Below are positions 18,130 through 61,019 of a DNA stretch of 64,000 nt, piece after piece. The DNA lies in assembly GCF_004310685.1 (NCBI RefSeq), contig NZ_SISG01000001.1:2852001-2916000 (forward strand), written 5' to 3'. The position numbers were made by a program, and so were the translations under genes. Every line of letters begins with the position of its first letter. The first letter of the stretch is position 1. The notes under the pieces were generated by a model. The model had not been told where the DNA came from. It made no database searches and worked only from the letters and a program-made list of their open reading frames with translations. This DNA is from Glaciihabitans arcticus (GTDB lineage Bacteria; Actinomycetota; Actinomycetes; Actinomycetales; Microbacteriaceae).

Positions 18130-18618
18130 TTAGTCGCCGAGGATCGAGTTGAGGTCGACGTCGTTAAGCACGTCGTCGACGAGGCCGTCGACGTCAACGA
18201 CGCCATCAACCAGGTCGCCTACCTCGGAACCGACGGAGGTGTCTCCACCGACCGAGTTGCCGTTTCCGCTGTTGTTTCCCACAGCGGTGTCGTTGCCCGA
18301 ACCAACGGCGGTGTCGTTGCCCGAAGCGATCGGTGCGGTGATCGGGGCCGTGATGTCGTTGCCCGATCCGATGGCGTTTCCGCTGCCGATGTCACCGACC
18401 TCCGGTGCTACAACGACGGGGGAGGAGTTGGAGATGTCGCCGACCATGGCCGACACGTTGTCGAGGAGGCTCGTGGTGGTCTGTGTCCAGGACGACGTGG
18501 TGTCGTGGCTGGAGGTGGTGTCAGCCATTGCGGGGGCTGCAAAGCCACCCACCATAAGAGCTGCTGCTGCAACGCCGGTCGTGCCGAGGATGGTCTTCTT
18601 CGTGATGTTGTTCATCAT
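18130..18618 (-). CDS. Secreted Gly/Ser/Asn-repeat protein
   Basis: A 162-residue exported protein. A canonical signal peptide runs from MMNNITKKTILG to about APAMA-D, leaving a mature protein of ~130 residues. Its middle is low complexity with repeats of the type GSGND-T/I-A (GSGNAIGSGND, GSGNDTAVGSGNDTAVG), and the end is acidic with VDGLVDDVLNDVDLNSILGD. The ATG at 18618 is preceded by a perfect AAGGAG at six bases. An upstream in-frame extension is rejected for that reason. The repeats resemble small secreted actinobacterial surface proteins; function is unknown. Confidence 0.7.
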   Translation of the reverse strand: MMNNITKKTILGTTGVAAAALMVGGFAAPAMADTTSSHDTTSSWTQTTTSLLDNVSAMVGDISNSSPVVVAPEVGDIGSGNAIGSGNDITAPITAPIASGNDTAVGSGNDTAVGNNSGNGNSVGGDTSVGSEVGDLVDGVVDVDGLVDDVLNDVDLNSILGD

Positions 18619-35951: not shown

Positions 35952-35993
35952 GCGAAAAGTGCTCCAAACCAGAAAGTTTGGAGCACTTTTCGC
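35952..35993 (+). terminator. Very strong rho-independent terminator
   Basis: A perfect 17-bp stem (GCGAAAAGTGCTCCAAA at 35952-35968 against 35977-35993) with an eight-base loop lies 16 bp after the glycosidase stop and 15 bp before the convergent gene's stop. The A- and T-rich stem bases could serve as T tracts in both directions. Confidence 0.85.
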
Positions 35994-59254: not shown

Positions 59255-61019
59255 CGCGCCCGCCACGGACTTCGCTGCAGCCCTGCTCGACGAGTTCGTC
59301 AGGCTCGGCGTGCGCGACGTCGTCCTCAGCCCGGGATCCCGCTCGCAGGCTCTCGCCCTCGTCGCCGCCGACCGCGCCCGCACCGGCTCGCTGCGCCTGC
59401 ACGTGCGTATCGACGAACGCGTCGGCGGATTTCTCGCGCTCGGCCTCGCGGTGGAGACGGCGGCCCCCGTGCTGATCATCACCACCTCGGGAACGGCCGT
59501 CGCGAACCTGCACCCGGCCGTGCTTGAGGCGCACCACTCGGGCGTGCCGCTCATCGTGCTCTCTGCCGACCGACCTGCCGAGTTGCGCGGCATCGGCGGC
59601 AACCAGACCACGCAGCAGCCGGGCATCTTCGGTGCGGCCGTCCGTGCCGAATGGGACGTCCCCGCCCCCGTTGGAAATTCAGGACTCTTGCCATCGGGCT
59701 CATCGGGCTCATCGGGCGCTGTTGGCAATTCAGGAGAACGGGATGCCGCGGCCTCCCTCGCCCGTGACGCCTTCGCCGCGGCGGCGCGCGGTCCCGTGCA
59801 CCTCAACCTCGCGTTCACCGAGCCGCTCTCGGGCGCCGTGCCGCCGGCCCCGGTCGACCAAAGTCCTGAAGTTCCAACGCCAGCCGCTGCGGAGCCAACG
59901 GAAGCTTCTGACCAAAGCCCTGAATTGCCAACGGCCACAGGCGTCCGGATCGCCGACCTCGCCTACGCCCCCGGCACCGTCGTCGTCGCAGGCACAGGCG
60001 CCGGCCAGCGTGCCGAGGCCGTCGCCCGCGCACTCGGCGCACCGCTGCTCGCTGAGGTCGCGAGCGGTGCGCACTTCGGCCCCAACCTCGTCGTGAACTA
60101 CCGCGCCCTGCTCGACCGCGCCAACTTCGGTGACCGGGTCGAGCGCGTGATCGTGTTCGGGCATCCGACGCTGAGCCGCCAGGTGCCGGCGCTCATCCAG
60201 CGCGAGGGCGTGCAGACGATCGTCGTGAGCTCCGCCGCCCCCGACGACTACAACCCCGGCCACCGCGTCCATACGTTTGTCGATGACGTGCGCGTCACGA
60301 CCGCGCCGGACGACTCGCCCGCCGCGCGGTCGTGGCTCGGGCGCTGGGTGACGACATCCCGCAACGAACTGGAACAGCACGATGCCCCCGACATCGCGAT
60401 CGCGATCTCTAGCGAACCGGCCGACCAGGCCGCGTTCAACCGCGCCGTGCTCGCCGGTCTCAAAGCGCCGGTGACGAGGCGTGCGCTGGTCGAAGCCGTG
60501 TGGCGGATGACCTGGCCGCACGATCGGCTGGTGCTCGGGGCATCCCGCCTCATCCGCGAAACGGACACCGTGGTGCCGGGCAAGAAGGTCCGCGTGCACG
60601 CCAACCGCGGACTCGCCGGCATCGACGGCACGATCTCGACGGCGGTCGGCATCGCCCTTGCCAGCCAATCCCGCGAGGGCGCCCCGGCGAGCGGTGTCAC
60701 CCGGGTGCTACTCGGCGACCTGGCCCTGCTGCACGATGTCGGTGCGCTGCTGATCGGGGCCGGGGAGACGCGTCCCCGCATCCAGGTGATCGTCGGCAAC
60801 GACGGTGGCGGAACCATCTTCGACGGGCTCGAGGTGGCGGCATCCGCGAACGCCGAGGACCTCGACCGCGTGCTGCTCACCCCGCACGATGCGTCGATCG
60901 AGAACCTCGCGAAGGCCTACGGCTGGGAGTACCGCCGCGTCGAGAACCGTGGCCAGCTCGACGAGAAGCTCACCCCCGGCAACCTCCCGACCATCGTGGA
61001 AGTGCCGCTGCCGCGCTAA
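59232..61019 (+). CDS. menD: SEPHCHC synthase MenD, with repeat-containing insertions
   Basis: A 595-residue ThDP enzyme that joins 2-oxoglutarate to isochorismate. The N-terminal Pyr domain has [20 protein letters not shown] and [11 protein letters not shown] (ThDP Glu); the C-terminal domain has [17 protein letters not shown] and [11 protein letters not shown]. The length is normal to slightly long. Two stretches, about residues 147-169 ([20 protein letters not shown]) and about 209-236 ([20 protein letters not shown]), are unusual low-complexity segments. They carry a short DNA repeat in four copies yet keep the frame. The gene should still be functional because all catalytic blocks lie outside. 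Confidence 0.93.
59670..59932. repeat. Four copies (two per orientation) of a ~20-bp element inside menD
   Basis: Direct copies: GTTGGAAATTCAGGACT at 59670-59686 and GTTGGCAATTCAGGAG at 59721-59736. Inverted copies: 59858-59878 and 59912-59932, whose complements begin GTTGGAACTTCAGGACTTTG and GTTGGCAATTCAGGGCTTTG. In protein they read VGNSG, VGNSG, QSPEVPT and QSPELPT. The direct and inverted copies could pair in single-stranded DNA or RNA. Confidence 0.75.

Follow-up and report, generated by a model that had tools for sequence, protein, structure and literature searches.

Phased pairs of half-sites in Microbacteriaceae genomes, their putative cognate AbiEi-nuclease and an outlying array inside menD

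Introduction

Dispersed chromosomal sites that occupy one region and are served by one protein are known from the parS-ParB and matS-MatP systems. The sites described here, four copies of which lie inside the menD gene of Glaciihabitans arcticus, differ from these in that the protein is unrelated and the cluster of sites tracks its gene rather than the origin or terminus. By layout, the closest analogue is the REPIN-RAYT system, in which short inverted doublets with a preferred spacing and a less conserved spacer are accompanied by a single nuclease gene that lies in the chromosome next to doublets of its own kind (PMC3116915), an arrangement that is also seen here. However, the RAYT nuclease is a Y1/HUH tyrosine transposase, whereas the nuclease considered here is of a predicted AbiEi-EDxHD type, and the present sites are further set apart by helical-turn spacing with a central palindrome, by clustering centred on the gene, and by the presence of some of them in conserved coding sequence.

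AbiEi proteins bind cooperatively to 23-bp inverted-repeat sites, bend DNA and regulate their own genes (PMC7319586). The operators of AbiEi and Rv2827c resemble the present system in the two-domain N-terminal fold of the protein and in the 22-23-bp inverted repeats beside the gene (PMC7319586), yet those repeats are local and lie 3 or 13 bp apart, while the arms described here are tens of bp apart and dispersed; moreover, the protein here carries a predicted nuclease domain, and nothing resembling an AbiEii (DUF1814) toxin was seen among the neighbours of its gene. A further likeness, in predicted catalytic-domain fold and in the E, D, H and D residues, is to the EDxHD homing endonuclease I-Bth0305I (PDB 3r3p), which is described as binding its target of nearly 60 bp as a dimer (PMC3943268). 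In contrast to that enzyme, the protein here has a DNA-binding part that is AbiEi-like, and its gene, apparently passed on vertically at one constant locus, has many chromosomal sites and is no intron or intein passenger.

Searches of the open-licence literature returned no paper on DUF559 and inverted repeats, which is weak evidence of absence, and only papers with unrelated titles for the core sequence; within that limited literature, which is likewise weak evidence, no earlier description of an AbiEi-nuclease with paired sites was found.

Results

The menD array

The window, i.e., the whole 64-kb stretch of DNA analysed, contains the core GGAAATTCAGG four times when up to one mismatch is allowed, all four in menD, against an expectation of 0.31, and none of 100 shuffles reached that number. 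The sequence-only reading had described these as four copies of GTTGGNANTTCAGG, two per orientation, and had held that they enter the coding sequence in frame and can be read in either direction; both statements were confirmed, at the positions given in Table 1, the peptides being GNSG or SPE(F/L/V)P. Permutation of the synonymous codons of menD produced at most one copy per trial in 5000 trials, and the copies use codons that are rare in this genome (for example AAT, TCA, TTG and AGT, which make up 9%, 6%, 2% and 5%, respectively, of the codons for their own amino acid).

Table 1. Positions of the menD features (in the window) and of the nuclease gene (in the genome)
Feature	Position	Strand	Remark
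menD ORF, 595 aa	59232..61019	+	host of all four half-sites
Half-site 1, full length GTTGGAAATTCAGGACTCTTGCC	59670..59692	+	peptide VGNSGLLP; one mismatch against the genome consensus GTTGGNAATTCAGGNNTCTTGTC
51-bp repeat unit	59670..59720	+	same length as the 17 residues by which the first menD loop exceeds that of seven relatives; insertion point approximate
Half-site 2 GTTGGCAATTCAGG	59721..59734	+	51 bp past half-site 1; without inner extension
Half-site 3, minus-strand CGTTGGAACTTCAGGACTTTGGTC	59856..59879 (short copy 59865-59878)	-	plus-strand peptide DQSPEVPT
Half-site 4, minus-strand CGTTGGCAATTCAGGGCTTTGGTC	59910..59933 (short copy 59919-59932)	-	54 bp from half-site 3; plus-strand peptide DQSPELPT
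Nuclease gene, own genome	C1:1204529-1205410	-	pairs at 1204448-1204538 and 1205509-1205598

Homologs of menD are present in all 30 relatives. An alignment with the menD proteins of seven relatives, a check that the sequence-only reading had suggested, shows both loops to be 17 residues (51 bp) longer in this lineage alone. The tandem unit measures 51 bp in the plus-strand pair of copies and 54 bp in the minus-strand pair. Copies 2 and 3 are separated by ordinary menD sequence, native and conserved in the eight-protein alignment, so that the copies bracket native sequence. Inspection by eye at 80, 91 or 102 bp from the menD half-sites revealed no canonical partner arms; menD holds half-sites alone, with no canonical pair. 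The array lies approximately 1.5-1.7 Mb from the nuclease gene described below, and it is best read as a peripheral, lineage-specific outlier, i.e., half-sites in tolerant loops, possibly without any role in menD.

Dispersal of the repeat and anatomy of a pair

The repeat is not confined to menD, and the refuting case named in the sequence-only reading, a repeat present there alone, therefore does not hold. Pattern searches of whole genomes returned eight copies of the 14-mer in the own genome and none of its reversed control, while the 11-bp core is present in 18 exact copies in this genome and in 45, 38 and 27 copies in three congeners (reversed control, zero), which answers in favour of a dispersed element the question that the sequence-only reading had posed about its frequency. 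Other sampled genomes contain 0-5 copies of the core. When 84,980 species genomes were scanned, almost all of the matches listed fell in Microbacteriaceae, namely in Salinibacterium, Glaciihabitans, Rhodoglobus, Galbitalea, Lacisediminihabitans and relatives.

Most copies of the core form inverted pairs with the plus-strand copy first. The 231 distinct pairs have total lengths of 79-81, 90-92 or 101-102 bp, with almost none in between, each step corresponding to one helical turn. Their arms read TTTCGGAAATTCAGGANWT, the unit presumably recognised is of approximately 22 bp (TTTCGGAAATTCAGGANWTCNNG), and the information in a half-site spans 22 bp, from position -4 to +17. A central palindrome, CCGCGNAATNCGCGG, is situated 46 bp from an arm end in most pairs of the two longer classes (92 bp, 63 of 72; 102 bp, 11 of 15), and most frequently at about 35 bp in the 80-bp class. 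Spacing and centre together represent the geometry that would be expected for proteins bound on one face of B-DNA.

The arms are complementary, and interiors and flanks are otherwise unrelated between copies. At an orthologous site adjacent to leuA in four congeners, for example, the arms are 95-100% identical and the interior is at random level. Furthermore, the inner part of the arm changes in concert between congeners, and arm sequence is concerted within genomes. Tandem doublets also occur, and same-strand half-sites are spaced by 51-55 bp in 8 of 19 cases, a count that includes menD with two such spacings. Pairs are over-represented between convergent genes and under-represented between divergent ones, neighbourhoods and gene orientation being taken from a crude gene caller that is liable to misplace some starts.

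Two unusual arrangements were also observed. Beside a response-regulator gene in a congener, three same-strand half-sites lie 42 and 45 bp apart (locus L186, 5092-5189; G001:C1:2943092-2943189), with a short ORF resembling a DUF559 fragment nearby. Loci L259 and L260 (genomes G107 and G266) carry dense tandem clusters of CAATTCAGGA half-sites at intervals of approximately 21 bp, a layout that differs from that of the usual pairs, and these arrays are possibly a derived form of the same system.

A putative nuclease gene flanked by pairs

In three congeneric genomes a gene of about 300 codons is located between two pairs, an arrangement that recurs at approximately 20 loci. Each of the 30 homolog loci examined has an adjacent pair, with pairs to both sides in 26 and to one side in four. 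One set of 300 genomes of the family was searched both with a profile of 18 orthologs, the gene being called at 346 bits or above, and with the exact pair pattern: 21 genomes had exact pairs, 22 had the gene and 19 had both (Fisher, 6e-25). Where the gene occurs without an exact pair, in three genomes, the pairs that flank it carry one or two mismatches in each arm, and two genomes have exact pairs with the gene undetected. One of these two is G068 (JAHBTA010000001-3; loci L101, L127 and L134), a genome 98% complete; its gene has possibly been lost, with the sites remaining.

Lower-scoring homologs (240-335 bits) also adjoin pairs, albeit in other dialects of the arm, GGCAATTCAGG in one genus and CCACAATTCAGG in another. 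The CAATTCAGGA dialect is itself dispersed, with 8-11 pairs in each of three genomes of one genus, near the gene; ten genomes with this dialect, in which seven candidates were scored per genome, returned no homolog at E 1e-60. Residues of the winged helix vary with the dialect (AQKQ, LHKR and LDRR), a suggestive link between dialect and protein that is confounded by phylogeny.

The sites also cluster around the gene. With the flanking pairs left out, 7 of 9 places in the own genome, and 11 of 20, 9 of 17 and 6 of 9 in three others, lie within 100 kb of it (p from 1e-5 to 1e-9 across the four genomes). The neighbours of the gene resemble frnE/DsbA and glyS, and a frnE/DsbA-like gene adjoins it at 24 of 30 loci, which suggests vertical descent at a constant place in the chromosome. 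A protein search of 50,697 phage and 72,556 plasmid records did not find the gene, and the pair pattern is absent from viral contigs. One genome, G026, has two copies of the nuclease gene (C1:1664489 and 3277120).

Taken together, co-occurrence, flanking, dialect and clustering give good support to the prediction that the sites are the recognition sites bound by this protein, and they lead us to infer strongly that the binding is direct.

Predicted structure of the protein

AbiEi sequence models (PADLOC) match 15 of 15 members scanned, with a best E value of 4e-5, and 11 of the 15 match the REase family MTES_1575 with scores that are below its cut-off where shown; the Pfam matches are below curated cut-offs. 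An AlphaFold2 model was obtained with pLDDT 84.8 and pTM 0.80. Its best Foldseek match is the AbiEi antitoxin 6y8q (E 1.6e-5), which aligns with residues 1-185 (Z 8.2); residues 186-285 compare with the endonuclease-like 3hrl (Z 8.9), I-Bth0305I 3r3p (Z 8.4) and Vsr 1vsr (Z 6.1). These Z values are moderate and near the general background of the tool, and the 6y8q match agrees with the sequence models. Residues E193, D221, H238 and D245 (numbering of the own protein) are invariant in 30 of 30 homologs. The predicted fold is thus that of an AbiEi-type module, i.e., a winged helix and an antitoxin fold, fused to an EDxHD/Vsr-like endonuclease domain. By analogy, the arms, spacing and centre of the pairs would fit a combination of AbiEi and I-Bth0305I.

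Pairs within coding sequence

A gene for a P-loop kinase holds a pair in two congeners, G005 (L071) and G001 (3502272-3502363, within the kinase match), as well as in another genus (L091 and L169). In a further genus an orthologous pair is present in another dialect, CAATTC (L264, G215). The arms enclose native kinase sequence, arm 1 falls in a loop of variable length, and arm 2 (SPEFP) lies over native codons (PPEL, QPEV) with no indel. The pair therefore arose, or is maintained, in place rather than as an inserted cassette. An 81-bp pair with GGC variant arms, situated in a ketopantoate-reductase-like gene of the own genome, looks like the kinase case.

The sequence-only reading had also proposed that an element of the palindromic-unit type had inserted itself into menD. 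This is contradicted by the anatomy of the sites, the unit being a non-palindromic half-site of about 22 bp that forms helically phased inverted pairs with unrelated interiors, by the coding pair that encloses native protein, and by the lack of a RAYT.

Discussion

The copies in menD are probably half-sites of a chromosomal site-plus-nuclease system that extends across Microbacteriaceae, with the AbiEi-nuclease as its putative cognate protein. In the mechanism that we propose, one AbiEi module would bind each arm, and the phased spacing would bring the nuclease domains to the middle of the pair, on the same face of the DNA. Pairs flanking the nuclease gene would allow it to be regulated by its own product, and autoregulation of this kind is likely by analogy with AbiEi proteins. 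Cutting and the repair-driven spread of sites are hypothetical: local binding, followed by nicking or cutting and by repair, could maintain, homogenise and spread the sites near the gene. For menD, half-sites might have reached two tolerant loops and multiplied there, in this lineage, as tandem 51- and 54-bp units.

In its fullest form, this proposal describes a paired-arm nuclease, with AbiEi modules on 22-bp arms and EDxHD domains at the phased centre, which writes, homogenises and keeps its own cloud of sites around its gene, in cis, even in menD, over the age of several genera; we put this forward tentatively, as a scheme that is less likely than not to hold in full. An enzyme that cut the chromosome carrying its gene at 20 or more sites would impose a heavy cost, unless it nicks, is regulated or is weak, and this would count against the nuclease reading. 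The invariant catalytic residues and the concerted change of the arms favour nuclease activity, while the orthologous retention of sites in coding sequence favours constraint.

Constraint is also at the heart of the alternative that comes nearest to an even chance, namely that a DNA-looping or bridging protein acts on the phased pairs, using its nuclease domain for DNA binding only, and that the sites are operators or domain anchors under host selection; their clustering near the gene would then reflect local search by a scarce protein. The persistence of orthologous sites with conserved arms, including that in the kinase gene of several genera, agrees with such a role, as do the preference of pairs for convergent over divergent genes and the description of AbiEi proteins as DNA-bending autoregulators (PMC7319586). 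The invariance of the EDxHD residues in all 30 homologs nevertheless argues for catalysis in use, and the inner part of the arm changes in concert between congeners, which also speaks against a purely regulatory role. It is unlikely that the pairs are instead transposed units of a REPIN- or MITE-like mobile element of miniature size, moved by the nuclease or by a transposase since lost. A lone nuclease gene in the chromosome, accompanied by doublets with a favoured spacing, does resemble REPIN-RAYT, and tandem doublets and arms concerted within genomes are in keeping with mobility, but the RAYT domain (Y1_Tnp, PF01797) returned no match in the own genome and five congeners in a search whose controls were positive, no target-site duplication was seen, interiors are unrelated between copies, and the kinase-gene pair encloses native protein with its second arm over native codons.

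A tag for DNA uptake or self-recognition, or a decoy that sequesters the nuclease, is a rather improbable explanation: the sites are short and oriented and are often paired near gene ends, but they number in the tens and cluster near one gene, unlike uptake sequences. Least credible is that the menD copies are ordinary peptide repeats that belong to no wider system. The loops are of low complexity and a 9-bp TCATCGGGC run lies between copies 1 and 2, which would suit such an origin; the same DNA core, however, is found in other genes and in intergenic regions on both strands, one DNA sequence encodes different peptides according to its orientation, the synonymous-codon control yielded no comparable array, and the genome-wide counts refute this reading.

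Several established identities were considered and rejected. A classical REPIN-RAYT system is ruled out by the absence of the defining RAYT, and a MITE by interiors that are conserved neither between copies nor at orthologous sites. The recurrent frnE/DsbA neighbour and the lack of phage and plasmid matches exclude a mobile homing gene, just as the lack of a protein match and of pairs in viral contigs excludes a phage or plasmid origin. Terminus-domain sites are ruled out by the position of dif, some 380-430 kb from the gene and to one side of the cluster. A DNA uptake sequence would require hundreds to thousands of copies, as against the 18-45 clustered copies present here, and integron attC sites are incompatible with the opposite arm order (+ then -) and with the lack of a GTTRRRY box.

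The preferred reading, that of a site-plus-nuclease system, links uncharacterised actinobacterial proteins, with an AbiEi-like N-terminus and a Vsr-like nuclease, to predictable DNA sites, and so makes their function testable. If true, it would represent a second, independently built and long-lived population of sites tied to one chromosomal nuclease, after REPIN-RAYT, and one with a clear helical geometry. It also indicates that such sites can enter protein-coding sequence and stay there.

Other repeats in the window

Two further repeats were observed in the window. At 35952-35993, GCGAAAAGTGCTCCAAAC and GTTTGGAGCACTTTTCGC form a perfect 18-bp inverted repeat around a 6-nt loop; it is the sole copy in the window and is probably a terminator-like hairpin, with no clear T-run. 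At 18278-18325, a 24-bp unit, CCCACAGCGGTGTCGTTGCCCGAA, is followed in tandem by a close variant of itself, amid similar GTCGTTGCCCGA repeats.
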